Source: a bacterium
GTDB lineage: Bacteria > UBP6 > UBA1177
Assembly: GCA_016290135.1 (NCBI GenBank)
Contig: JAEESW010000002.1
Coordinates: forward strand, 10,001 to 74,000
Direction: 5' to 3'
DNA length: 64,000 bases
Shown here: positions 9,805 through 23,776 of the stretch, in pieces
How the letters are laid out: every line of letters begins with the position of its first letter
Position numbering within the stretch: position 1 is the stretch's first letter
Program-made: the position numbers and the translations under genes
The notes under the pieces: model-generated
Databases searched by the model: none
Told to the model about the DNA's origin: nothing
What the model saw: the letters and a program-made list of their open reading frames with translations, nothing else

Positions 9805-11366
9805 GCCGTCTCTCGGCGGACGAGTTCCGCAACCACCTGAATTATTACCTCGTAATCCGTTTCTTCTTCGTTTTCACCGTCATATTTTCATTCTTTCTTT
9901 TCCCGTTCATCCGCGAGAATACCGATATCTTCTCATTTGCAAACAAATGCTTTCTCCTTTCATCGTTCATAATACTCGTATTCAACATCGCCTCGCTGAT
10001 CTTCGGCCGTTTTATCCGTGAAAAGTATCTTACACTTTTCGCCTATATGCAGTTCATCGTGGAGATCACATTCTGGGTCATGGTCTCATACATCAGCGGC
10101 GGAATAAGTTCCCCCTACCTTTATGTCATAATCATAAACATCGTTTACGCGGGGATCCTCATGCGGGAAAAAGGGGCGGCGGTCACGATACTTTACGCAT
10201 TCACTCTGCTTCTCCTGCAGGGCATGTGCATCAAATTCGACTTTCTTCCGCTCATAACCTCAGAACTCGTGAAGACCTACACAGCATCGTGGGAGTCCTA
10301 TTTTTCGCGGCTTTTCACCTACCTTCTCTTTTTCTCATTCACAGGTTTCGTAGCAAGCAGGATAACGAAAAGTTTCCGGCAGGCGAACAGTTCACTTATC
10401 GAGTCCACACTAAGGAACAAAGAGATGCAGAAGCATTTCTTCGCGATATTTTCGCAGATAAATATCGGTATCGTGATCTTTGACGAAACGGCGAAATTTT
10501 ATGTGAACAGATACGCGGAACAGTTCGAAGATATCCTTGACAGATTTCTTGCCGAAGCAACGAAGGACACCGCTTCAAACGGCGCGTGGTCTGAGAAAAA
10601 GATCGGCGATTTCTGGCTTTCCTACACCGTGATGCCCTACATCGAGAACCAGAAAGTCATTATATTCTCAGATCTTACTGCGATCAGAAAGCAGGAGGAA
10701 AGTTTCGAACTTCAGGAAAAGCTGGCAACTATCGGAAAACTCACGGCAACGATAGCCCACGAGATCAAAAATCCCCTCACAAGCCTCATCGGAGCAAGCG
10801 AACTGATGTTTTCAGAAATAAAAGAGAGCCAGCCCGAATCGGAGGAGCTCATCGAGATCGTCCGCCGTGAAGGAACACGCGTAAAGACCCTGCTCGATTC
10901 ACTTTTCAGATACACCGAAGAGACTTCATACACACTTATGGAATGCGTTCCGAGTTCGATCCTGACAGATGTCGTGACACTTTTCAGACTCGGACATCCG
11001 AAAGTAAAAATAACCTGCAAAGTCGATGAATTTTCCGTTCTCGGAGACGCCGAAAAGCTGAAACAGGTCTTCTGGAACATAATGACAAACAGCGCTGAAG
11101 AGATGAATGACGAAGGAGAAATCAACATATTCTCGGAACTTTCCGAAAACTCTTTCAAACTCTATTTTGACGACACCGGCTCAGGTTTCAACGAAAAAAA
11201 TATCGACAAAATTTTTGACCCGTTTTTTTCAACAAAAAAGCGCGGGACAGGTCTCGGACTTGCTCTCGTTTATAGGATCATCACAAAACACGGCGGCAAG
11301 ATAAAAGCCATGAACACCGAAAAAGGTGCGAGAATTATTATAGATTTCGGAATCAAGGTTAAATGA
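9801..11366 (+). CDS. pilS: Sensor histidine kinase, PilS-like
   Basis: 521-residue membrane histidine kinase. Six hydrophobic segments in the first ~190 residues match the PilS sensor domain that monitors pilin in the membrane. A PAS-like stretch follows, then the H-box IAHEIKNPLTSL, N-box WNIMTNSAEEM, G1 DTGSGF and F/G2 region FDPFFSTKKRGTGLGLALV. The start overlaps the pilC stop by 4 bp (ATGA) and the end overlaps pilR in the same way, indicating translational coupling. Partner of the adjacent PilR by context; in known systems the pair controls pilA transcription. Confidence 0.9.
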   Translation: MSRLSADEFRNHLNYYLVIRFFFVFTVIFSFFLFPFIRENTDIFSFANKCFLLSSFIILVFNIASLIFGRFIREKYLTLFAYMQFIVEITFWVMVSYISGGISSPYLYVIIINIVYAGILMREKGAAVTILYAFTLLLLQGMCIKFDFLPLITSELVKTYTASWESYFSRLFTYLLFFSFTGFVASRITKSFRQANSSLIESTLRNKEMQKHFFAIFSQINIGIVIFDETAKFYVNRYAEQFEDILDRFLAEATKDTASNGAWSEKKIGDFWLSYTVMPYIENQKVIIFSDLTAIRKQEESFELQEKLATIGKLTATIAHEIKNPLTSLIGASELMFSEIKESQPESEELIEIVRREGTRVKTLLDSLFRYTEETSYTLMECVPSSILTDVVTLFRLGHPKVKITCKVDEFSVLGDAEKLKQVFWNIMTNSAEEMNDEGEINIFSELSENSFKLYFDDTGSGFNEKNIDKIFDPFFSTKKRGTGLGLALVYRIITKHGGKIKAMNTEKGARIIIDFGIKVK

Positions 11367-12790
11367 TGGAAAATTCTGAAAAAGTTAAGATTCTTGTTAT
11401 CGACGACGAACTCAGCATGCGTCAGTTTCTCCAGATACTGCTGAAAAAGGACGGCTACGACGTCACGACTGCAGAAAACGGCGAAATCGCGCTGCGCAAG
11501 CTGAAAGAAGAAAATTTCACGGTGATCCTGATGGATTACAATATGCCTGAAGCAATAGACGGCATCGATCTACTGAACGAACTCCTTCACACGAGTCCGA
11601 GATCTCAGGTCATCGTGATCACAGCTTATGCATCGACGGAACAGGCGATAAAGGCGATAGAACTGGGAGCAGTCGACTATGTCAGCAAACCTTTCAATGT
11701 TGCGGAGATACGCGACATCGTGAAGAAGTGCGTTGCATCGGCCTCACAGATGAAAAAAAACGAGGAACCGCCGAAAACTCCGGCGGCGAAACCGGATACC
11801 GAAACACGGAACATGCCGGAAGAAAGCGGCATGATCGCCCAAAGTCCGCAGATGAAAAAGATCCTCGAACTCGCCCTCCGCATAGCTCCGACCGACAGCA
11901 CAGTCCTCATTACCGGAGACAGCGGAACAGGAAAGGAGGTCCTTGCGAACTTCATCCACAAAAACAGCGGCAGAGGCGACCTTCCATGGTATCCGATAAA
12001 CTGCGGTGCGATCCCTGAGAATCTTCTTGAAAGCGAACTTTTCGGGCATGAAAAGGGCTCTTTCACCGGCGCATATCAGACAAAAAAAGGTTATTTCGAA
12101 GTCGCCGGGAACGGCACGCTTTTCTTAGATGAGATCGGCGAACTCGGTGAAAATATGCAGGTGAAGCTGCTTCGAGTGCTTCAGGAAAGGGTTTTCACGA
12201 GGGTCGGAGGCACAGAAAAAATCCCGACGGGAGTCCGCCTCATCGCCGCGACCAACAAAAACCTTCAGGAGCAGATCAAAAAAGGAAAATTCCGCGAAGA
12301 CCTTTACTTCCGCCTGAACGTTATCGAGCTTTACATTCCGCCGCTTGCGGAAAGACGCGCCGACATAATGCCTCTTGCTGAAATGTTCCTGGATCAGTTC
12401 TCGAAAAAAACAGGGACAAACTTCAGATTTTCAGACGAGATCCTTGATTTTTTCAACCGCTACAACTTTCCCGGGAATGTCAGGGAGCTCAAAAATATCA
12501 TCGAACGCGGCACGATATTCGCACGCGACGGGCTTGTCTCGGAGATCAGCATCGAAAAAGCGACCTCTTCACAAAACAGGCAGCCATCCGGAGGAAATCC
12601 TTTCGAGATCGACCTTTCGCACAATGTGGATCTTGACGAGATCTTATCAGGGATCGAAAAACGCTACATCGTTGAAGCCCTCAAAAAGACGAACTACAAC
12701 CGCCACGACACCTGCGTTCTGCTCAATCTGACAGAAAGGATGCTCAGATACCGCATGAGCAAGCTCGGGATCAGGGATGAAAAGGAATGA
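11363..12790 (+). CDS. pilR: Sigma54-dependent response regulator, PilR-like
   Basis: 475 residues: receiver domain (VLVIDDE-type acidic pocket, phospho-acceptor Asp in ILMDYNMPE), AAA+ sigma54-activation domain, and a Fis-type HTH at the C-terminus. In the AAA+ part Walker A is GDSGTGKE, the sigma54 contact loop reads GSFTGA rather than the commoner GAFTGA, and Walker B is GTLFLDEIGEL. PilR-type proteins activate sigma54 promoters, classically pilA. No pilA and no convincing -24/-12 promoter is present in this window, so its targets are elsewhere. The ATGATG start allows either of two adjacent codons. Confidence 0.92.
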   Translation: MMENSEKVKILVIDDELSMRQFLQILLKKDGYDVTTAENGEIALRKLKEENFTVILMDYNMPEAIDGIDLLNELLHTSPRSQVIVITAYASTEQAIKAIELGAVDYVSKPFNVAEIRDIVKKCVASASQMKKNEEPPKTPAAKPDTETRNMPEESGMIAQSPQMKKILELALRIAPTDSTVLITGDSGTGKEVLANFIHKNSGRGDLPWYPINCGAIPENLLESELFGHEKGSFTGAYQTKKGYFEVAGNGTLFLDEIGELGENMQVKLLRVLQERVFTRVGGTEKIPTGVRLIAATNKNLQEQIKKGKFREDLYFRLNVIELYIPPLAERRADIMPLAEMFLDQFSKKTGTNFRFSDEILDFFNRYNFPGNVRELKNIIERGTIFARDGLVSEISIEKATSSQNRQPSGGNPFEIDLSHNVDLDEILSGIEKRYIVEALKKTNYNRHDTCVLLNLTERMLRYRMSKLGIRDEKE

Positions 12791-13676: not shown

Positions 13677-14660
13677 ATGAGTTACACAGCAAACATAATT
13701 TATTTTTCAAATAGGCCGGATGCTTTGAAAATAAGCGCCCATCTTGCTCTCTCAGGGATAAGTTCCGAACTTTTTCCGGTGAAAAAATGCATCATCACGG
13801 AAGACATTTCCGACTTTTTCGTCTTCGACAAAACCCAGGCGGATCCGCTTGAAAAGGCCTATCTGCGCGACGGGAAGACCGGTCCGGCGGCTCTTCTTTC
13901 GATACAGAAGATGATCCTCGACAGGATAATCAACGATGCAAAAGAAGAGACTCTTTTCTTTGTTGAAGAGAGTTTCATCCCGGAATGTTTCTACATCAGA
14001 AAAGCCCTTTTCAGGAAGAGAAAAACTTTCTTTTCTTTCGGCAGGCTTGCTCCGGAATCCGGCCTTTCGGTCGTCAGAGGCGCACTTGACCTGGGATTCC
14101 ACGAGGCGTCGTTTTTGGATTTTCCGGAGCCTGAAAAAAACTGCCGCCCTGCTGCAAAAGTATCGTGCTTTCCTGAATTTGACGGCACTTTGGCGATAGA
14201 TGCCCCGCCGGATCCGGTCCCGGTGCGTTATCTCCGCTTCTTCAGAAGCCCGCTGCAGCTCACGAAAGCGCTCATCCGCTTTTACGACTCGCTTCTTCCC
14301 AGCCGAAAGCATGCAGAGATCTTTATCTATTCACCAAACAAGGCAGCAGACTCATACACATCTTCCGAAAGGACTGCGCAGCTCATCAGACTTTTGGGAG
14401 CAAGAGGAAGAACTTTTTCCGACTTTTCGGAACTTCCTTCAGGCACGACCGTTCTCACATGGTCGACAAAGCGCTTTTTCCAGCTCCTCAAAAACGGATT
14501 CAGGCCGGTACCTGCGACAAGATCGCTTGCAGCAAAGATGTTCGACCAGAAGACAAAATCACTCGCCCGACTTATCGTATCATCTCCCGAAGCCGGAGCA
14601 GCTTTAAAAATAAAAAATTTTCTTCACAACTGCGAACTGAGGAATCTCAAAATAAGATGA
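13677..14660 (+). CDS. Unknown protein, 327 residues
   Basis: I do not recognise this protein. It has no signal peptide, no membrane helix and no obvious catalytic motif. The N-terminal ~100 residues alternate hydrophobic strands and charged helices. The middle contains several Phe/Arg-rich stretches, and the C-terminal third (roughly 215-290) reads like a Rossmann-like or receiver-like alpha/beta fold (HAEIFIYSPNK, GTTVLTW). It starts 5 bp after the UbiA-like gene and its stop overlaps the etfB start (ATGA), so it is translated in the same operon. Its genomic partners are the only clue to function. Confidence 0.75.
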   Translation: MSYTANIIYFSNRPDALKISAHLALSGISSELFPVKKCIITEDISDFFVFDKTQADPLEKAYLRDGKTGPAALLSIQKMILDRIINDAKEETLFFVEESFIPECFYIRKALFRKRKTFFSFGRLAPESGLSVVRGALDLGFHEASFLDFPEPEKNCRPAAKVSCFPEFDGTLAIDAPPDPVPVRYLRFFRSPLQLTKALIRFYDSLLPSRKHAEIFIYSPNKAADSYTSSERTAQLIRLLGARGRTFSDFSELPSGTTVLTWSTKRFFQLLKNGFRPVPATRSLAAKMFDQKTKSLARLIVSSPEAGAALKIKNFLHNCELRNLKIR

Positions 14661-15448
14661 ATATCGCCGTGCTCATAAAACAGGTCCCGAGGACCGACAA
14701 AATAAAGATAGACAAAGAAAAGGGAACGCTCATCAGAAAAGGGGTCGAATCGATCCTGAATCCTTACTGCGAATACGCTCTCGAAGCAGCTGTCGCGATA
14801 AAAAAACAGATCAAGAACACAAAGATCACCGTCATAACGATGGGGCCGCCGAGCGCAAAAGCTGTTATCCGGCGTGCCGTCGCTCTCGGTGCAGATGAAG
14901 GTGTCATCCTGAGCGACAAAGCCTTTGCCGGATCTGACTGCCGGGCCACCGCTTATGCCCTTTCCTGCGGCATAAAAAAGGCCTGCGGAACCCCCGACAT
15001 CATCCTCTGCGGGCGTCAGGCAATAGACGGCGATACCGCTCAGGTACCTGGAGAGACCGCGCAGATGCTGGGGATCCCGATGATTCCCTATATCACTGAA
15101 ATAGTCAGCATCTCGGAAAGATCACTGACCGTAAAAAGCGAATTCGACAACAAAGAACTTACCCTTTCCGCAGACTTTCCTCTCATTCTCACTGTCAGGA
15201 AGGGCTCGAACAACAGACGAATGCCTTCTTTGAGCGATGCGATACGGGCTTTTTCCTACGAGCCTGAAATAATGAGTGCGCAGGAAGCCGGATGTGATCC
15301 TGAAAAACTCGGTCTTTCAGGAAGTCCGACAAGAGTCGTGAAGATCGTTCCGGTCGCAGCAAAAGGAAACTGCCGCTTCTTCAACAGCTCCGACTGCGCC
15401 GAAGGTCTCGCTGAAATCAAAAAAATGATCGAAAAAAACAAAGAGTGA
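14657..15448 (+). CDS. etfB: Electron transfer flavoprotein beta subunit
   Basis: 263-residue EtfB/FixA-type protein. N-terminal IAVLIKQVP, the AMP-binding LCGRQAIDGDTAQVPG motif and the segment FPLILTVRKGSNNRRMPSL are characteristic. The ATG at 14657 overlaps the upstream stop by 4 bp; the frame stays open further upstream, but that part is antiparallel to no conserved sequence. EtfB normally forms a heterodimer with EtfA, which carries FAD. No etfA, acyl-CoA dehydrogenase or EtfQO gene is adjacent, which is unusual because etfB and etfA are nearly always paired. Confidence 0.9.
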   Translation: MNIAVLIKQVPRTDKIKIDKEKGTLIRKGVESILNPYCEYALEAAVAIKKQIKNTKITVITMGPPSAKAVIRRAVALGADEGVILSDKAFAGSDCRATAYALSCGIKKACGTPDIILCGRQAIDGDTAQVPGETAQMLGIPMIPYITEIVSISERSLTVKSEFDNKELTLSADFPLILTVRKGSNNRRMPSLSDAIRAFSYEPEIMSAQEAGCDPEKLGLSGSPTRVVKIVPVAAKGNCRFFNSSDCAEGLAEIKKMIEKNKE

Positions 15449-15455
15449 TCTTTCT

Positions 15456-16007
15456 CTAACCTATCTCAAGAAGCCTTTTGGCGACAAATTCAGGAGAGTC
15501 TTTGAGATTGTGGTGAATAATAAAAAATTCAGTCTGTGACATCAGTTTTTCAAGCATCGAAAAGTAGTGCCCGAAAAGCTGGTTTTCCCCTTCCGCAGGA
15601 GGCGCGGCGCAGAATAGAAGCTTTTTCCAGATGAGAGCCTTGTCAGTCAGTTTTTCAAGGTAAGTCTCTTTTTCGAACTCTTTGGCAACAAAAAGAAACG
15701 CCCTCAGTTTTGCCGTGAGCTCCTGATTCACGAGATATTTTTTCGTGCTGAAATTTTGTTCGTTCTGATCCCAGAAACTGCTTACGATTATGCCGCTATC
15801 AGCAAATTCAAGAAGACTTCTGTCATCGTTGATGGGGTTGAACAATTCTTTCAGTTTAAAGCAAAGAGTCGATTTACCTATTCCGCAGACTCCGCCGCAG
15901 ACAAAGGCGAAACCGTTTTTTTCAAAAGAACTCGAATGAACGATGAGACCTTTTTCAGCCGAGTACAACTCGCGCTGAACTTGAAGCGTCTCGGAAACAG
16001 GGGACAT
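15456..16007 (-). CDS. HprK-like P-loop kinase
   Basis: 183 residues with a Walker A motif CGGVCGIGKSTLCFK near residues 36-50 and an acidic NDDRSLLEF segment near 60-68. This layout matches the HPr kinase-like proteins that accompany PqqD-type proteins and small precursor peptides in RiPP loci, some of which phosphorylate their peptide. It is shorter than true HprK (~310 residues), and no HPr-binding or N-terminal HprK domain is visible. It starts 2 bp after the stop of a 37-residue peptide gene and ends the PqqD operon. A kinase role toward that peptide is an inference. It converges on etfB with a 7-bp gap and no visible terminator. Confidence 0.7.
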   Translation of the reverse strand: MSPVSETLQVQRELYSAEKGLIVHSSSFEKNGFAFVCGGVCGIGKSTLCFKLKELFNPINDDRSLLEFADSGIIVSSFWDQNEQNFSTKKYLVNQELTAKLRAFLFVAKEFEKETYLEKLTDKALIWKKLLFCAAPPAEGENQLFGHYFSMLEKLMSQTEFFIIHHNLKDSPEFVAKRLLEIG

Positions 16008-16009
16008 CG

Positions 16010-16123
16010 TTAGTCACATTTAAACGGATCATCTTCTGTCGGAACACACTCACTCGCGTAGACCACCTTTCTGTCAAGTTCGATCTCTTCGATAATTTCA
16101 GGTTTCTGATAATTCTTTTTCAT
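16010..16123 (-). CDS. Small peptide, candidate RiPP-type precursor (37 residues)
   Basis: Short gene with an excellent ribosome-binding site (GGGAGG, 5-6 nt before the ATG). The peptide begins MKKNYQKPEIIEEIELD, a Lys/Tyr/Pro-Glu leader pattern shared by many small peptides next to PqqD or lasso-type machinery. It ends in a Cys-containing tail, ASECVPTEDDPFKCD, with two Cys, one Ser, one Thr and four acidic residues. It sits between a giant lipoprotein and an HprK-like kinase in an operon headed by a PqqD-like gene. No homologue can be confirmed here, and the precursor role is an inference from leader style and neighbours. Confidence 0.65.
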   Translation of the reverse strand: MKKNYQKPEIIEEIELDRKVVYASECVPTEDDPFKCD

Positions 16124-16145
16124 AATATCCTCCCATAAATAAAAA

Positions 16146-19100
16146 TTAAAAATCCAATCTTTCGCAGTTTCCTGCCGCTTTCGCATTGTTACAATAAATT
16201 ATAGCATCGTCAAGCATCATCAATTTTGGGTTGGAACCTGTTTGATAAGAAAACACCTCGAAAACCGAAGGCTGCGTTCTAAGCTGTTTTGCACCAGTCG
16301 CACCATCAGTATAGGTGTAGTAAATAAGCACACCGGTTGAAGAAGTAATTACCAAATCATCTGCTCCGTCACCGTTGAGATCTTTCGCTTCTGTCGCAAC
16401 GGCAACAACATTGGACGAAGGAGTAAAACCGTAATTATCGTAAATAGCAGAAAAATCGTTTATAGTCATATCTGGTTTAGAATTTATACCGCTGATTGAG
16501 CCGTAGTAAATCCTTGTTTCACTTTTTTCATCTGTATCGTAATTATAAACAAAATCGGTTATTCCGTCACCGTTGAAATCACCTTTACTCATATACAATC
16601 CAGGGCTGGAAAGAGATTTGAATTTAGGAGTAAGTGAACCTTCGGAAGTGCCGCCGTAAAGTATATAGAGTGCGTTGTCAGAACCTAAAACGAAATCAGT
16701 TTTTCCGTCATCATTGAGGTCTCCTACATCCATCATGCCTGAATTGCCGACTTTTGCATCAGTTGCATTACCTGTGAATGTAAGATCGGGTTCTTCGCCT
16801 ACAAAACCGCCTTCCTTGCAGCCTAAGTAAACATAAACTTCTCCGGCTTTGCTGAAATCCCCGACATTTTTCGAAGGTGCTGTAATTAAAATATCATCAC
16901 AACCGTCACCGTCAAAATCTCCAGTTGCAAGCCCTCTGTTTGCCTGATTCGAAGCATCTTTTGCCCTGAAAGAAAAAGGAGTTCCTTCAAAATCGATTCC
17001 GTCCTCTGTTCCGAAGAAAACAAAAACATTTCCCTTATAATTGGTGTAAGCAAAGTCTTTGAAACCGTCACCGTTGAAATCTGCTTTTGACGAAATATCC
17101 TGACCAACCATTTCTGTTGAACCGATTGTGCCGCGGAACGATTTTATAAGCGTATGGCCGGCACCCGAATAGATATCAACAAAACCGTTATACTGGTTGT
17201 CTATACCTGAATCCGACTTGTAGCGGTTTGAAATAGCGTAGTCCTCAAAACCGTCGTTATCGACATCTCCGATGATTTTAAGTCTGAAATTGTGGTAACC
17301 GCTCGAATTTTCATAAATATTGGTCCACTCCATTTTGAGAGTGCCGAAATCTTTGACCGAGCCTGCATTGACCTCACCAAAATTCTTAGCCATGACTCTG
17401 CCGTCATCCGCAAGGACCGCATTGACCGCTACGACTGCCGCACAGTAGCTGTTTCCGTTTTTGTGGATGTCTGCCGTAAGCGTTCCCGCCGCATTCGTCA
17501 CCGCATTTACGAAGAAGTTGTAGCTCATCTGCGTATCGAGAGGTTTCGTGATCTTTCCCGCAAATTCAGTGAGCGGAACAGTCGCACTGTCGAATTCATC
17601 GACTATAGAACATGTTCCTTCGTCATAGCTCTGGTAGCGCACTTCGTAAGCGTAAGGCTTTGCTGCAAGCGGATCCCACGCGAAATTAAGTTTTCCCAGA
17701 AGAGCATCTGCAGTCGATGCGGATGCCGCGGCCGTTACAGGCTCAGGAAGCGCCAGATCGACGTGAAGCGGAACGGAATATCTCTGAACGAATCCGCTTT
17801 CAGTCTTGAGAACGAAAACAAGGTCGTAATCAGTCTGACCGTTCATATTCGTGTCTGGAACTGCCAGATTCGAGAAATCGGCAGAATAGTAGTTTTCAGG
17901 AATAGCGTCCCCCTGCATCTTGACAAGGGAAACCTTAGCATATTCGAAACCGGCAGGTGCGTTTTCGATCTCCATAAAGCCGCCGGTCACAGAATTCTGG
18001 ACCGTGAATTTTATCGCCGATCCGGCCTTGAAATTAAGTATTCCGTCTCCCGGAGTAAGGTCGTCATCATATCCGAAACCAAGTTCGGCGAGCTCTGTCT
18101 CTTCGGTCGAAGGATCGTCCGTAAGCTCGTAAATGCTGCAGTATTCAGCCGATTTAGGACATATTTTCGGGCTCGCGACATATACGCCGGGAGTTCTGTC
18201 TGTCGCAGCAAGATAGTAGGTCTCGCTGTAAAGGCCTGATGTTATCGAAAGTTCCGAAACAGCAACGAGATTGAGCGGAAGACCGACGGTCTCATAACCT
18301 GCCGCACCTATCGTGACAGTATTGCTTACAGAACCGATCTCGTAACCTACTTCCGTTCCCTGAGCCGCATAGATCCTGACAGCAGCTTTGCACGAAGATT
18401 CTGCACAGTTTTCAAGTTCAGCCGGGCCGAACCATACCGGTTTTGCCTCATGAGTGACGTTCATGACCGTGACGCCGTCTGCTTTCTTCAAAGTGATCTC
18501 GGGAACATCGTGAGTTACCTCAAACGTGTTTCCGACTGAAGCAGTAACGTTTCCGTGATCGTCCGTAAGTGTGAGATCTGCGCTCCACTCACCTTTTGAA
18601 AGCTGCAGCGTCTTTTCAAAAACGCCGTTTTCCGTAATGACCCCGTGCCATGTTTTTACACTTTCCCCTTTTGTCGCAACGAGAGTATAAGAGGTCTCAG
18701 GCGCGGCATTTGAAAGATCGATCGTCATTTTTACCGGATAGTTTTCCGTATCGAAAGCAAGCGAATTTATCATCGGAGCGGTGATATCGACTTCGTAGTA
18801 TTCTTCATCTCCGCCGCCTATCTTTCCGGGATTCCCCGCGAAATCGAGGACTTTGACTATGAACTGGTGTCTGCCGTCTATGAGATCCGGCAAATTGACA
18901 ACGATATTCTGCCTGTCATCTGAAAGAGTCGCCAAGTCCGTAATAACGATTTCGACCGAACCGAAAACATGACTGACTTCAACGATCTCACTAAGGATTT
19001 TATCAGAAACGATCTTCATTTTTACACCGTTGAGGCTGTGGGCAAACTCTGCCACGCTTGCCCCTTCGAGATGCTCGACATCACTCATAACGAGCCATCT

Positions 19101-21044
19101 CGAATCGTCACCTTTGCCTTTCGGAGATACGACCGCGAGAACCGGATTGGTCGTACTTACCGTGACAGGATCAAGAGTGGTTGATGAAATATTGCCGGTG
19201 CAGTCTTTTACTTCGACTTTGAGAGTGTGCTTCGCCTCACTGAGTTCGATATCTTTAAAAACGACCGAAGCGCCTGCATTTGACTGCGTCGCAAGGACTT
19301 TATTCGGAGTTCCGCTGCCGCCGTTGGTATATAAAGTGACAGTTCTGTTTCCGTCTCCCGTGACATTCGCCGCATCGCTGACACTGATGCTGACCGTTAC
19401 CGGATTCTGCACCGCATTGACGGTCGAAACGATCTCCTCACCGTTTTTCCCGACAACGGAAACCGCATCAATAGAAGGCGAATTGACATCGAAAGTTATA
19501 GTACGGTTGCCTGAATCGACCGTTTTGTCGTTGAGAGTATCGTAAAGCACCGCGCGGAAGACCCTGGGAGAGCAGGAATCAGCAAGCGTTGGGTCTACAA
19601 AAGAAAGCGATTCGGCTCCGAATCTGCCTGTTTTGAGAGAGGTGATCACCGTATCTACTTCAAAAAGCTCTACTTCAAGCCCGGGAATCGAATCAGTGAT
19701 ATTGAAAGTCGCAAAAATCCCAGAGGAAAAAGTGCTCTGAGAAAAGATTTTGTTGTCCAACGGGAACGCCCACGCAATCTCCGGACTTTCAGTCACGACA
19801 ATGATCTTCTGGATATATTCGGCATCCGGAATATCTTCAGACTTGCCGCCGACAACGACTTTCACAGTGTTTTCACCTTTATTGAGCACAAGTCCGCTCA
19901 TCATTATGAAACCGTTTTCGACACCACTCTCGGTAAGTGTTCCCTCCCAGACAGGCGACCACTCTTCGCCGTTTTTTGTATAAACATTGAATTTTGCACC
20001 TGCAGCAGTGTTTGCAAAACCGACTTTGAAACAGACGCCGTAAGCATCTTCACCGTGAATAGCATTCTGCGTCGTTCCGACATAGATCTTACCGTCTTTG
20101 ACTACTGCGCCGTAGTTGTTCGCCTTGCAGGTATCGGCATCACCGTTTCCCAGTTTGTCGCTATTCCACGGAGCGAGGATCTCGATATTCGCGATCGAAA
20201 AATCGATTTTCCACGAAAAAGAAACCACGTCGGATTCAGTTCCGCCGACATTTACGGCCTTGAGAGAAAACTGATGGTCTCCTTCAGTAAGATTTTCGTA
20301 AACTTTCGGCGAGGTGCAGTTTTCCCACTCGTTCGCATCGATCTTGCAGCGGAAAGCCGCCTCTTCGATATCGGATTCGAATGTGAATTCAGCCGTAGCG
20401 ACCGATGAAACAGCCTGCGGATGCGAAGTTATCTCTGCAACCGGCTTCGCTTCTTTCGGTCCGGTATCACTGTCGCTGTCATCTACCGGATTATCGCTGT
20501 CGCTGTCAGCATCGTCATCAGCAGGCTCAGTGTCGTCGTCATCATCGGGTGTCGTATCACTGTCGTCTTCCGGTTCAGGATCGGAATCGCAGGTCAGAGT
20601 TATTTCAGCCTTAACATAAGGATTCAGGAGCAAAAAAGCTGAAAGTTTATACTCACCTTTTTCAGAAAGATCGATCTCGAAAGCGGCTGTCTGTTCCGAA
20701 AGGAGACTCTTCAAAGTTTCCATATTCTTCCCTTTAGCTACAGAAAGAACGATATCCATTCCGTCATGAAGTTTTTCGGAAACTTCGCCGAGAGCGACTT
20801 CCACCGTGACTTTTCCGCAGAGATGCGCTCCGTCTTCAGGTGAAGTTATCGCGATCTTATAATCATCTTCCTCAAAACCTGTGCATTTTCCTTTATCCTT
20901 GCCTTCTTCCATCGAACAGTATGAACCATATCCGCACTCTTTGTCTTCAACGCATTTTTTACTGTTTCCTCCGCTGCACGAAACAAGGATAAAAATCAGA
21001 AACAATACGGAAAAGAGTGTTGAAAATCTCCGTTTTGAACTCAT
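16146..21044 (-). CDS. Giant surface lipoprotein with Ig-like region and FG-GAP repeats
   Basis: About 1632 residues from the ATG at 21044 (GAGGTG upstream; the TTG and ATG further upstream overlap the pqqD-like stop). It has a lipoprotein signal with lipobox LVSC (Cys23), a short Cys-rich segment, a ~45-residue Asp/Glu/Ser linker, then a long all-beta region of repeated Ig/cadherin-like units (about 200-1280). The C-terminal ~300 residues contain at least five Ca2+-binding FG-GAP/VCBS-type repeats (DVDNDGFEDY, DFNGDGFKDF, DFDGDGCDDI, DLNDDGKTDF, DFNGDGITDF, DLNGDGADDL). FG-GAP propellers occur in adhesins and secreted surface proteins. It lies inside the PqqD-peptide-kinase operon, which is odd for such a protein. 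The function is unknown; surface adhesion or substrate of the system are both possible. Confidence 0.88.
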   Translation of the reverse strand: MSSKRRFSTLFSVLFLIFILVSCSGGNSKKCVEDKECGYGSYCSMEEGKDKGKCTGFEEDDYKIAITSPEDGAHLCGKVTVEVALGEVSEKLHDGMDIVLSVAKGKNMETLKSLLSEQTAAFEIDLSEKGEYKLSAFLLLNPYVKAEITLTCDSDPEPEDDSDTTPDDDDDTEPADDDADSDSDNPVDDSDSDTGPKEAKPVAEITSHPQAVSSVATAEFTFESDIEEAAFRCKIDANEWENCTSPKVYENLTEGDHQFSLKAVNVGGTESDVVSFSWKIDFSIANIEILAPWNSDKLGNGDADTCKANNYGAVVKDGKIYVGTTQNAIHGEDAYGVCFKVGFANTAAGAKFNVYTKNGEEWSPVWEGTLTESGVENGFIMMSGLVLNKGENTVKVVVGGKSEDIPDAEYIQKIIVVTESPEIAWAFPLDNKIFSQSTFSSGIFATFNITDSIPGLEVELFEVDTVITSLKTGRFGAESLSFVDPTLADSCSPRVFRAVLYDTLNDKTVDSGNRTITFDVNSPSIDAVSVVGKNGEEIVSTVNAVQNPVTVSISVSDAANVTGDGNRTVTLYTNGGSGTPNKVLATQSNAGASVVFKDIELSEAKHTLKVEVKDCTGNISSTTLDPVTVSTTNPVLAVVSPKGKGDDSRWLVMSDVEHLEGASVAEFAHSLNGVKMKIVSDKILSEIVEVSHVFGSVEIVITDLATLSDDRQNIVVNLPDLIDGRHQFIVKVLDFAGNPGKIGGGDEEYYEVDITAPMINSLAFDTENYPVKMTIDLSNAAPETSYTLVATKGESVKTWHGVITENGVFEKTLQLSKGEWSADLTLTDDHGNVTASVGNTFEVTHDVPEITLKKADGVTVMNVTHEAKPVWFGPAELENCAESSCKAAVRIYAAQGTEVGYEIGSVSNTVTIGAAGYETVGLPLNLVAVSELSITSGLYSETYYLAATDRTPGVYVASPKICPKSAEYCSIYELTDDPSTEETELAELGFGYDDDLTPGDGILNFKAGSAIKFTVQNSVTGGFMEIENAPAGFEYAKVSLVKMQGDAIPENYYSADFSNLAVPDTNMNGQTDYDLVFVLKTESGFVQRYSVPLHVDLALPEPVTAAASASTADALLGKLNFAWDPLAAKPYAYEVRYQSYDEGTCSIVDEFDSATVPLTEFAGKITKPLDTQMSYNFFVNAVTNAAGTLTADIHKNGNSYCAAVVAVNAVLADDGRVMAKNFGEVNAGSVKDFGTLKMEWTNIYENSSGYHNFRLKIIGDVDNDGFEDYAISNRYKSDSGIDNQYNGFVDIYSGAGHTLIKSFRGTIGSTEMVGQDISSKADFNGDGFKDFAYTNYKGNVFVFFGTEDGIDFEGTPFSFRAKDASNQANRGLATGDFDGDGCDDILITAPSKNVGDFSKAGEVYVYLGCKEGGFVGEEPDLTFTGNATDAKVGNSGMMDVGDLNDDGKTDFVLGSDNALYILYGGTSEGSLTPKFKSLSSPGLYMSKGDFNGDGITDFVYNYDTDEKSETRIYYGSISGINSKPDMTINDFSAIYDNYGFTPSSNVVAVATEAKDLNGDGADDLVITSSTGVLIYYTYTDGATGAKQLRTQPSVFEVFSYQTGSNPKLMMLDDAIIYCNNAKAAGNCERLDF

Positions 21045-21058
21045 ACCACACCTCAGCA

Positions 21059-21346
21059 TCAAATTATTTCCACAAGTTGTTTTTCCAAAAATTTCTCAAC
21101 GATTTCAATGACATCATTTTCGATCACGGAAAATTCGTCAAGAGTTTCGACTTCGAAACGGGCCGCAAAAAGTACGATGATCTCCTTGACAGTGCGCTTC
21201 CCGTCAATAAGCGACCAGAGCTCGGCCGCGGATTCATTCAAAGTCACCACTTTGTCCGATTCCGGAGAAACTGCGACAAGAGTGCCGTCAAAAGAGCGCC
21301 GGCAAGCGACGTCGTCCTTGATTTTTAAAACTTTGTCCTTTTCCAT
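21059..21346 (-). CDS. PqqD-family protein (RiPP recognition element-like)
   Basis: 95 residues from the ATG at 21346, chosen because GGAG lies 5-8 nt upstream. It shows the PqqD pattern: an N-terminal beta region with VACRRSFDGTLVAVSPESDKVVTLNESAAELWSL (read in parts), then IDGKRTVKEI and a helical C-terminus. PqqD-like domains bind leader peptides of ribosomally made, modified peptides and present them to tailoring enzymes. It is first in an operon with a giant lipoprotein, a 37-residue peptide and an HprK-like protein. No radical-SAM enzyme, protease or transporter accompanies it here. Confidence 0.85.
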   Translation of the reverse strand: MEKDKVLKIKDDVACRRSFDGTLVAVSPESDKVVTLNESAAELWSLIDGKRTVKEIIVLFAARFEVETLDEFSVIENDVIEIVEKFLEKQLVEII

Positions 21347-21373
21347 CGTATCTCCATAAACCAAAAACATTAT

Positions 21374-21401
21374 ATTTTAATAACAATTAAGTTTTTAGCA
21401 A
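21374..21401 (-). promoter_or_regulatory. Promoter of the PqqD-like operon
   Basis: Minus-strand TTGCTA (21396-21401) and TAAAAT (21374-21379) with a 16-bp spacer, placing the start about 20 nt upstream of the PqqD-like start codon. It is divergent from the promoter at 21420-21447, with only 18 bp between the two -35 boxes. Confidence 0.6.
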
Positions 21402-21419
21402 AAAAACCGTTCTTTTTCT

Positions 21420-21484: not shown

Positions 21485-22453
21485 ATGAAAAAATTTAAAC
21501 TGCTTTTCATTCTGGTTTTATCGGTTTTTTTTGCTTTTTCATGCTCTCACAACGATGACGAGGAGGAACTTGCGGACACCGACAGCAGCGCAGTACAGGA
21601 CGCTGACAACAGTACAGACACTGTGCCCGACGAAACCACAAACGACGATGACAAAACCGATACCGCATCTGAAAACAACGATGCCGACACATCGGATACC
21701 GGTATAACGGATAACGACATAACGGAAAATGCCGATGATCCCGACACAACGCCTGATTCAGGCGATCCACAGCCTGACGGAGAAAACACCGATCCTACCG
21801 AAGACTCCGATGAAGCGGCTGATGATTCCTATTCAGACTCCGACACTTCTGACAACGATACAACGGACAGTGACGATGACAGCGACACGGATTCCGGCGA
21901 TTCCCAGCCTGACGATGACGGAGACACTTCAGCTCCGGAACAGCCGTCTTTTCCTGAATGCAGCCCGGCAAGCGCGAAACCGTGCATAGATTCAGCGACC
22001 GGACTTATATGGTCTTCGGCGACCTCTCAGAACAAGAAATGGGCTGAAGCAGGAAGCCACTGCAACGGCTTGACTGAAGGCGGCTTTGAAGACTGGAGAA
22101 TGCCGACGATCAGCGAACTCAGAACGCTTGTCCGCAACTGCCAGAAGACTGCTGCCGGCGGCGCCTGCAACGTTACCGACGAATGCACAGCCTCCTACTC
22201 CACCGCAAACCCGAAGTGCTATGACATAAATTTGTGCACGAGCACGACGAACGCTCTCGGGATCGAGAGATGCGGAGACAAAACCGACGGCTCGTACAGC
22301 CTTCTCGGAGACGCCTCGGTCTATCTCTGGTCTTCATCAGTTCCAGACGAAGATCACGACAAGGCATGGTATATCTACTTCAAGAATACCAATATCTTAA
22401 ACCAGAAAAAAACTTTGACCGGAATGGTCCGCTGCGTCCGCAAGATCAAATAA
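21485..22453 (+). CDS. Lipoprotein with acidic linker and one DUF1566 domain
   Basis: 322 residues. A lipoprotein signal with lipobox AFSC (Cys20) is followed by ~130 residues of almost pure Asp/Ser/Thr/Glu/Pro linker. A single DUF1566 (Lcl C-terminal) domain follows (about 160-322), recognised by CIDSATGLIWSS, EDWRMPTISELRTLVRNC, YLWSSS and the terminal MVRCVRKIK. The ATG at 21485 follows GGAGG. DUF1566 is common on bacterial surface proteins and in Legionella Lcl adhesin; its ligand is unknown here. Six Cys in the domain suggest disulfides. First of two co-directional paralogues. Confidence 0.85.
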   Translation: MKKFKLLFILVLSVFFAFSCSHNDDEEELADTDSSAVQDADNSTDTVPDETTNDDDKTDTASENNDADTSDTGITDNDITENADDPDTTPDSGDPQPDGENTDPTEDSDEAADDSYSDSDTSDNDTTDSDDDSDTDSGDSQPDDDGDTSAPEQPSFPECSPASAKPCIDSATGLIWSSATSQNKKWAEAGSHCNGLTEGGFEDWRMPTISELRTLVRNCQKTAAGGACNVTDECTASYSTANPKCYDINLCTSTTNALGIERCGDKTDGSYSLLGDASVYLWSSSVPDEDHDKAWYIYFKNTNILNQKKTLTGMVRCVRKIK

Positions 22454-22474: not shown

Positions 22475-23776
22475 ATGAAAAAAAGTTTGTTGATCTTCAC
22501 CTTGATCTTATCGGTATTTCTTCTCTTTTCCTGTTCCAGCAACGATGACGGGGAAGAACTGACTGACACAGACAGCGACACATCGCAGGACGCTGACAAC
22601 AGCATTGACACTCTTCCCGACGAAACATCAAACGACGAGGACAAAAACGATACCGCACCGGAACAGGACGATCCGGACGATATCGAAATATCCGATATTG
22701 ACACATCGGAAAATGATCCTGATGATTCCGACGATCCCGACACATCGGATGCAGACACATCGGAAAATGATCCCGACCCTACAGATCCGATCGATGATCC
22801 CGACACGACTGACGATGAAGATACCGGCATCGTGATACCCGACATCCCCGTCGTTTTCGGCAACATCTGCACCGGCCAGACCAAATGCTACAGCGAAACA
22901 GCCGAGATCACCTGCCCGGATGAAGGCGAAGCGTTCTTCGGCCAGGATGCGCAGTATGCAAAAAAAGGAACATGCATCCCGCAGAAATTCACGGTCAAAG
23001 GAAGCGGGGAAGAAAAGATCGTTTTTGACGAGAACCTCAAGCTTGAATGGCAGCAGAAAATCACAAAAAATGTCGATTGGCAGCAGGCTTCGGAAGAGTG
23101 CGCAAAAGAATACGCCGGAAGTTACGGCTGGCGTCTTCCGACACCGAAGGAGCTCCTTTCGATCGTTGACAACGGCAGATACGATCCAGCGATAAATACA
23201 GATCTTTTCCCCGGCACAACCGACGAATGGTTCTGGACTTCCGCCGATTTCGCCTCAACTGCAGATGCAGATCAGAACAAAGCGTGGTTCGTCCGCTTCG
23301 ACAGAGGATTTTTAAGCCACAAAGTCAAGACTGAAAGCGAAAATATGCATGTCCGCTGCGTCCGCGGCACGCCTCTGCCTGACGGACAGTTTGAAACCGA
23401 AAAGATCGGCGAAGACGAAATAGTCAAAGATTCAGTCACCGGTCTTGTCTGGCAGAAGACCTATAAAGACAGCGTGAAAACTTTCGCAGACGCCCTTTCC
23501 ACCTGTGAAAACCTTGAATACGCAGGAAAAAGCGACTGGAGGCTTCCCAACAAAAACGAACTTGCCTCACTCGCAAACTACGGCAAATACCGCCCAGCTT
23601 CAGACTTTCCCGGAATGCCGAACCGTTCTTTCCGCACATCCTCAAGTGATGCGAAAAAGAGTCCGACCTCCGATGACTGGAAAAACGCATGGTATGTCAC
23701 CTTCTATGACGGCATCGTAAATTTCGGCGGCAAATCCAATTCAGATATCGTCCGCTGCGTCCGCAGAGGCGAATAA
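22475..23776 (+). CDS. Lipoprotein with acidic linker and two DUF1566 domains
   Basis: 433 residues. Signal with lipobox LFSC (Cys20), then a ~100-residue acidic linker closely similar to that of the gene upstream (shared DTDS..QDADNS.DT.PDET), showing recent duplication. Two DUF1566 domains follow: residues ~185-305 (ASEECAKEYAGSYGWRLPTPKELLS ... VRCVRGT, read in parts) and ~310-433 (GKSDWRLPNKNELASL ... VRCVRRGE). The first ATG with a GGAG site is at 22475. Likely co-transcribed with the gene 21 bp upstream. Confidence 0.85.
   Translation: MKKSLLIFTLILSVFLLFSCSSNDDGEELTDTDSDTSQDADNSIDTLPDETSNDEDKNDTAPEQDDPDDIEISDIDTSENDPDDSDDPDTSDADTSENDPDPTDPIDDPDTTDDEDTGIVIPDIPVVFGNICTGQTKCYSETAEITCPDEGEAFFGQDAQYAKKGTCIPQKFTVKGSGEEKIVFDENLKLEWQQKITKNVDWQQASEECAKEYAGSYGWRLPTPKELLSIVDNGRYDPAINTDLFPGTTDEWFWTSADFASTADADQNKAWFVRFDRGFLSHKVKTESENMHVRCVRGTPLPDGQFETEKIGEDEIVKDSVTGLVWQKTYKDSVKTFADALSTCENLEYAGKSDWRLPNKNELASLANYGKYRPASDFPGMPNRSFRTSSSDAKKSPTSDDWKNAWYVTFYDGIVNFGGKSNSDIVRCVRRGE

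Follow-up and report, generated by a model that had tools for sequence, protein, structure and literature searches.

A putative leader-directed phosphopeptide cassette that includes a giant integrin-like lipoprotein gene in an uncultured rumen lineage

Four genes behind one candidate promoter

The window considered here is a 64,000-nucleotide stretch (positions 10,001 to 74,000, forward strand, of contig JAEESW010000002.1 in assembly GCA_016290135.1) from a 98% complete bacterial genome (G000) of the UBP6/UBA1177 lineage, and it carries four reverse-strand genes coding for a PqqD-like protein, a giant FG-GAP lipoprotein, a 37-residue peptide, and an HprK-like kinase. A first-pass annotation, made from the letters and their open reading frames (ORFs), had read these as a minimal peptide-modifying locus behind one promoter, with the peptide recognized by the PqqD-like protein and phosphorylated or otherwise modified by the kinase, and the lipoprotein as partner or target. 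The four same-strand ORFs lie as described, and the peptide gene does have the best ribosome-binding site of the set, a GGAGG with 5-nt spacing; the intergenic gaps, in the order PqqD-like gene, lipoprotein, peptide, kinase, are 14, 22, and 2 bp by ORF coordinates, the first having been given as 15 bp. We conclude that the locus almost certainly belongs to a pathway for a ribosomally synthesized and post-translationally modified peptide (RiPP). Its features, all on the reverse strand, are as follows:

21373..21405 (-): probable operon promoter block, -35 TTGCTA, 16-nt spacer, -10 TAAAAT (site scan and congener alignment)
21059..21346 (-): PqqD-like protein, 95 aa, a discrete RiPP recognition element (RRE; PF05402)
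16146..21044 (-): giant lipoprotein, 1632 aa, with LVSC lipobox-like signal, Cys-rich N-terminus, Asp-rich linker, immunoglobulin (Ig)-like domains, and FG-GAP propeller
16149..17338 (-): integrin-alpha-type C-terminal beta-propeller, residues about 1236-1632 (AlphaFold2 model, Foldseek, alignment)
16129..16133 (-): Shine-Dalgarno GGAGG of the peptide gene (sequence)
16010-16123 (-): peptide gene, 37 aa
16055..16123 (-): peptide leader MKKNYQKPEIIEEIELDRKVVYA with predicted RRE-binding motif YxxPxI, identical in five congeners
16052..16054 (-): Ser24 codon (Tyr5 + 19), predicted phosphorylation site (codon comparison and Tyr-offset count)
16010..16054 (-): peptide core SECVPTEDDPFKCD and stop, hypervariable, with two Cys
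15456..16007 (-): HprK-like kinase gene, 183 aa
15867..15896 (-): kinase Walker A GGVCGIGKST (K45-S46), invariant in 12 kinases
15825-15830 (-): kinase N60-D61 pair, downstream of Walker A, invariant in 12 kinases

A consensus promoter scan gave no excess of sites (7 in the sequence, 7.2 in shuffles). A 33-base block, TTTTTTGCnAAAAAnTnAATTGTTATTAwAATA, is conserved in four congeners (alignment including G013, G016, and G018) and is found once in the window, with none expected; because it is conserved between diverged flanks and unique in the window, we take the single promoter (TTGCTA-16-TAAAAT, 21374-21401) to be probably real. For the PqqD-like gene, the probable start is 21346 (95 aa) rather than 21370 (103 aa), because its relatives begin at the matching Met and the -10 ends just 3 bases before the ATG at 21370; the residue numbers N45 and D86 used below follow the 103-residue reading from 21370.

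Our same-genus sample consists of 15 congeners, five carriers (the window's genome among them) and 10 non-carriers, and comparison of the five carriers indicates a translated precursor, its leader under constraint and its core diversifying, because variation in the leader is nearly all silent while the tail is hypervariable, with insertions and deletions. Over the first 24 codons, each pair of species differs by 8-12 silent changes on about 12.5 silent sites, near saturation, and the leader protein is identical in all five (pooled synonymous difference, pS, 0.78; nonsynonymous difference, pN, 0.015; pN/pS 0.02); a Ser codon switch accounts for all the nonsynonymous steps counted. The tail has a pN of 0.375 plus indels. 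A set of 19 related precursors was gathered, including those of genomes G024 and G026, and in the order the leader has the approximate form Yx[KR]Px[ILV][ILV]EE....[RKE]x[LVMF][VLF][YHF][A], with YQKPEI as the motif in G000. Counting back from the predicted cut, the 13 distinct leaders examined at the main loci have Tyr at -19 and Pro at -16 (the four other congeners share the G000 leader), the distance being -18 instead in the distant G024 and G026. The predicted released core has 14-20 residues, two Cys, and a Pro-containing loop, and varies fast between species.

The PqqD-like protein matches PF05402 (E 1e-15) and is the sole PqqD in the genome; it scores 37.8 bits against the PqqD equivalog of PQQ biosynthesis, below the curated cut-off of 46. 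N45 and D86 are invariant in these proteins and align with N33 and D70 of LppB (structure 9x8z), which belongs to the system for linear polyphosphorylated peptides (LPP; lppAKBSDN of Paenibacillus alginolyticus), reported in 2026 and described by its authors as restricted to Bacillota and of open function; in the LppB-leader crystal structure, N33 and D70 hold the leader around Pro-13 and hydrogen-bond Tyr-16 (PMC13381572). The conserved leader and these leader-binding Asn and Asp residues support the idea that the peptide is recognized by the PqqD-like protein, and we consider it very probable that this protein binds the leader.

Recurrence in relatives and enzymes encoded elsewhere

The gene order of the cassette recurs in five of the 15 congeners, in other genera, and in other families, and because of this recurrence we do not regard the association of the four genes as chance. 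The order is PqqD-lipoprotein-peptide-kinase in the congeners G013, G016, and G018, and the contig of the remaining carrier, G015, starts inside the lipoprotein. Within the same family, two genomes have longer clusters that include genes for radical S-adenosylmethionine (radical SAM) enzymes and an S26 protease: PqqD-lipoprotein-peptide-kinase-radical SAM-kinase-radical SAM-peptide-S26 in G002, and PqqD-lipoprotein-peptide-kinase-radical SAM-S26 in G003, which has a second locus of kinase-radical SAM-peptide. The order is PqqD-lipoprotein-peptide-S26-radical SAM-peptide-kinase in G020 and G021, of a second family, and G022 and G023 agree with this as far as contigs and gene calls permit; G024 has lipoprotein-peptide-kinase. 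In G026, of a more distant family, PqqD-lipoprotein-peptide is accompanied on the other strand by S26-kinase and a Cys-rich protein of no recognized family; this 322-residue protein (L200:7571-8539, CxxC...CC) occupies the place of the radical SAM enzyme next to kinase and S26, and has no Pfam or NCBIfam match.

The locus had been called minimal and free of protease, radical SAM enzyme, cyclase, and exporter. No protease gene lies in the cassette itself, but the genome encodes one in trans: a profile search located a SipW-like S26 protease at G000:C60:11579-11950, behind a family-2 glycosyltransferase. S26 matches are present in four of the five carriers (G000, G013, G016, and G018) and in none of the 10 non-carrier congeners, and the contig of the fifth carrier, G015, appears broken inside the glycosyltransferase adjoining the S26 site. 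The protease has a Ser-His spacing of 38-39 (39 in LppS) and no membrane segment, and lies inside the cluster only in relatives; we consider it quite likely to be the leader peptidase. The glycosyltransferase in front of it was ruled out as a pathway member, as it occurs in non-carriers too.

A gene for an NTP_transf_5 protein (PF14907, G000:C28:3225-3827) is likewise present in all five carriers and in none of the 10 non-carriers (Fisher p 3e-4); most other locus-carrying genomes of the order have it too. Its setting within the genus is an unrelated operon of large ATPase/helicase-like genes, which it either belongs to or adjoins, and in related cassettes of other phyla it is next to S26 or the kinase. 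The LPP cluster includes a protein described as an NTP transferase (PMC13381572), and the equation of PF14907 with the LppN family is our own reading. The cassette, S26, and NTP_transf_5 are on three different contigs of the window's genome. Carriers are not monophyletic in a rough two-gene species tree (bootstrap rough), in which the carrier label needs about seven changes and well-supported branches force three; because carriers do not form one clade, shared ancestry by itself is unlikely to explain why the cassette, S26, and NTP_transf_5 occur together. With these two enzymes encoded elsewhere and their presence tracking the cassette, "minimal" is not an apt description, and the system is therefore close to LPP (PMC13381572).

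The absence of a radical SAM enzyme holds for the window's genome, whereas the clusters of relatives include one or two such genes. The cluster-type profile has no match in the window's genome at E<=1e-3, and since that genome is 98% complete we regard the enzyme as truly absent; within the order, matches above 460 bits are confined to G002, G003, and G020-G023. An ancestral radical SAM modification appears to have been lost in this genus, which would leave phosphorylation as the main predicted modification. The cassette could instead be a decaying remnant of a radical SAM RiPP cluster that no longer makes a product, a reading that fits both the lack of a radical SAM orthologue in the genome and the absence of the cassette from 10 of the 15 congeners. 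It is highly improbable, however, given purifying selection on the leader, the kinase, and the PqqD-like protein (pN/pS 0.02, 0.23, and 0.25, respectively, among the congeners), the conserved promoter, and the retention of S26 and NTP_transf_5 in trans.

As for a cyclase and an exporter, neither was seen at the loci that were read. No B2 cysteine protease or macrolactam synthetase was recognized at the cassette or at the relatives' loci, whole genomes lying outside that search. A 798-residue membrane protein encoded beside the kinase in congeners was ruled out as an exporter: it matches spermine/spermidine synthase and is retained in non-carriers.

The non-carrier G014 has the two neighbor genes with a clean absence of the cassette between them. 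At this cassette-free site (L203:1975-2130, compared with G013 L029:5500-5640 and 11545-11650) the alignment of the left flank extends to base 2104 and that of the right flank begins at 2059, and because the 46-base overlap is promoter-like sequence, the cassette may have been lost by recombination between two similar promoters. Genome G019 (94% complete) has a full-size lipoprotein homologue (L109:4594-10583) and PF14907; no PqqD-like protein or kinase was found in it, and its contig ends inside the lipoprotein. Divergent beside the cassette in the window are two Asp-rich-linker lipoprotein genes (21485-22453 and 22475-23776); similar genes recur elsewhere in the window and on the corresponding flank in relatives. 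Downstream of the kinase, two long same-strand ORFs (13677-14660 and 14459-15448) overlap by ~200 bases, which probably reflects a frameshift, or a start called too far upstream, in one of the two.

The kinase, its predicted site, and the lipoprotein

By fold the kinase is HprK-like, as judged from an AlphaFold2 model (pLDDT 91) whose best Foldseek match is HPr kinase/phosphatase 1knx (E 4e-5). NCBIfam matches are weak (HprK_rel_A and ScmC), a PDB sequence search with the kinase profile returned generic P-loop proteins only, and a plasmid search with the kinase gave no match. In line with the earlier proposal, we regard it as likely that the kinase phosphorylates the peptide; as the acceptor we lean slightly toward Ser24.

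Ser24 lies 19 residues after leader Tyr5 (Tyr+19). All seven precursors from loci without a radical SAM gene (the five congeners, G024, and G026) have Ser at this offset, and none of the 12 from genomes with a radical SAM enzyme do, with G024 being 65% complete and G026 judged by its locus alone; among offsets 14 to 29, only Tyr+19 shows this contrast. Ser24 has also been retained through a codon switch, being TCA in one congener and AGT in four, codons that are at least two changes apart. In published systems, LppK phosphorylates Ser3 of LppA, at leader Tyr+18 (PMC13381572), and BsfK phosphorylates Ser3 of BsfA, at leader Tyr+19 (Tyr -17; PMC10368454).

The lipoprotein gene lies directly upstream of the peptide gene in all 13 genomes in which that junction is assembled, across three families of the phylum, and its proposed role as a partner gains from this constant adjacency. 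The protein carries a lipoprotein signal, Ig-like domains, and FG-GAP domains, and its C-terminal 400 residues form a predicted beta-propeller (AlphaFold2 model residues 170-566 confident) that is nearest to integrin alpha (Foldseek against integrin alpha5, E 2.7e-11). The likeness to the integrin alpha propeller is one of fold only, this being a bacterial lipoprotein with 12-20% identity. We think the lipoprotein is reasonably likely to be a functional partner of the peptide, and because its lipobox places it outside the cytoplasm and its fold is a ligand-binding one, the likeliest role would be that of receptor, anchor, or immunity partner of the product.

Two alternatives concern this protein. 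The pathway might act on the conserved C-terminal Cys-x8-Cys tail of the lipoprotein, with the peptide as a regulator or detached tag: in each complete locus the lipoprotein gene separates the PqqD-like gene from that of the peptide, and the last Cys pair (Cys1618 and Cys1627) is invariant in an alignment of 12 relatives. Nevertheless, the N-terminus of the lipoprotein bears an export signal rather than a YxxP leader, it is the peptide leader that matches the RRE contacts, and cytosolic enzymes would need to act before export, so that we consider this target very unlikely. Alternatively, the lipoprotein is an adhesin that shares the promoter and has no functional tie to the peptide. These genomes commonly encode Asp-rich and FG-GAP lipoproteins, and the domains of this one look as if they had recombined independently of the core; against this stand the 13/13 junctions in three families, the finding that full-length homologues occur almost only where the peptide locus does, and their loss with the cassette. 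Such an adhesin has a lesser though appreciable chance of being the correct account, and is compatible with the rest of the pathway that we propose.

The lipoprotein genes of the congeners (window 16146-21044; L028, L029, and L030) look mosaic, with stretches of 95-100% identity (for example, residues 786-1200 between G000 and G018) beside others of 45-75%, which suggests domain exchange. A region of the lipoprotein that tracks the peptide core was sought and rejected: there is just a slight excess of G000-G016 identity around residues 1263-1500, and domain mosaicism dominates.

A proposed pathway and its relation to known systems

We propose that the cassette is probably the core of a leader-directed ribosomal phosphopeptide pathway that works like LPP; its catalytic steps and their order, export, and the part played by the lipoprotein are what we infer from the comparisons above. 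The PqqD-like RRE would bind the YQKPEI motif, and the HprK-like kinase, recruited with the RRE, would phosphorylate the precursor, the likeliest acceptor being Ser24, the first residue past the leader. The phosphate may in turn be decorated by NTP_transf_5. The SipW-like S26 protease would remove the leader near Ala23, cutting after V-Y-A or after Val21. The first of these fits the -3/-1 preference of signal peptidases, and with the second, Ser24 would come third in the core, as the Ser does in LPP and BsfA. The giant lipoprotein would serve this pathway specifically, as a binding protein of integrin-alpha type outside the cell, and would most likely be a receptor, anchor, or self-protection partner.

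With LPP (PMC13381572) the system shares a discrete RRE with the same Asn/Asp leader contacts, a YxxP leader, an HprK-like kinase, the lack of any cyclase seen, a variable core, patchy presence, and, in trans here, a probable SipW-like S26 leader peptidase and an NTP transferase. The two differ in that protease and NTP transferase are on other contigs here and in the cluster in LPP, and in the giant FG-GAP lipoprotein here and the radical SAM enzyme in relatives. We do not file the system as LPP, because the loci showed no exporter, the leader lacks the extended motif, and LPP has been described as restricted to Bacillota. An RRE (B1) and an HprK-like kinase acting on a [Y/W]xxPxL precursor are also found in BsfA/BsfB1/BsfK (PMC10368454) and paeninodin (reviewed in PMC8498205); unlike these phosphorylated lasso peptide systems, the locus here has no B2 cysteine protease or macrolactam synthetase and no lasso core.

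Cassettes of PqqD, radical SAM, HprK-like kinase, S26, and a [Y/F]xxP peptide, some with NTP_transf_5, were sampled in many genomes outside the phylum. These cassettes (L223-L240) have homologous RRE, kinase, and S26 genes and the short peptide in one cluster; they differ in that they have a radical SAM enzyme, their peptides end in Ser, and a giant FG-GAP lipoprotein was not recognized among them. All eight precursors recovered from them end in Ser, which fits what is expected of substrates of kinases acting on a C-terminal Ser, and proteins checked from four of the cassettes fall below all NCBIfam cut-offs shown. The SynChlorMet cassette (ScmC, ScmD, ScmE, and ScmF) has a similar combination of HprK-like, PqqD-like, and radical SAM proteins and is among the best sub-threshold matches; however, ScmC reaches 21.6 bits of 125 and ScmD 24.5 of 100, and no such radical SAM enzyme is present in this genome. 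A literature search found nothing on SynChlorMet with HprK or PqqD, or on radical SAM with HprK, and, as far as we could find, the combination of RRE, peptide, and kinase with a giant integrin-like lipoprotein has no earlier description.

Several observations weigh against an LPP-like phosphopeptide. The contrast at Tyr+19 comes from three independent lineages without radical SAM and was spotted after the fact, in the same data, rather than predicted beforehand; moreover, Tyr+19 is not Ser in the radical SAM-carrying relatives, and therefore one acceptor site cannot serve the whole family. Replacing the YxxPxL motif of BsfA with Ala did not abolish phosphorylation (PMC10368454). The LPP leader is YxxPxVLxHQxIxFETxxS, of which only YxxPx[IV] is present here, with Ser 19 rather than 18 residues after Tyr, and no counterpart of the MsbA-like exporter of the LPP cluster was seen in a search confined to three loci, those of the cassette, S26, and NTP_transf_5. 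As for the lipoprotein, G000 and G016 have almost the same core and lipoproteins that are about 71% identical, whereas G000 and G018 have different cores and lipoproteins that are 82% identical; lipoprotein divergence therefore does not track the core, which argues against a simple core-specific receptor. Finally, Ser plus Thr in the cores is at background (13.0% vs 12.9%), while Cys makes up 11.2% of tails compared with 1.9% of sampled window proteins, and therefore Cys chemistry may matter more than phosphorylation.

Every one of the 19 cores has at least one Cys, with an even number in 17. The precursor might be mainly a Cys-modified or disulfide peptide, with the kinase-like protein as an ATP-driven chaperone or Ser primer, and loss of radical SAM having left a disulfide peptide; the radical SAM/SPASM enzymes in the relatives' clusters would also suit it. 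On the other hand, the kinase keeps its Walker A and Asn-Asp pair, the Ser at Tyr+19 is found in all peptides of loci without radical SAM, and the HprK-like enzymes of LPP, Bsf, and paeninodin are proven peptide kinases (PMC13381572, PMC10368454, PMC8498205). We regard this alternative as unlikely and retain the phosphopeptide pathway as our preferred reading. We speculate, more tentatively, that a fast-diversifying phosphopeptide together with a dedicated integrin-like lipoprotein receptor or display scaffold makes up a new RiPP class, in which the other enzymes are scattered and gained and lost together.

On the preferred reading, LPP-type chemistry would extend beyond the Bacillota to an uncultured rumen lineage, with related cassettes in many other genomes, and the constant extracellular partner offers a lead to what phosphopeptides do. 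The analysis also yields a testable rule, that Ser occurs at leader Tyr+19 where the radical SAM enzyme is absent. It further indicates that the genes of one RiPP pathway can sit at unlinked loci, such that cluster-based genome mining would call it incomplete, just as the first-pass annotation did. If the proposed role of the lipoprotein is true, this operon would encode both members of a bacterial pair of peptide ligand and propeller receptor.

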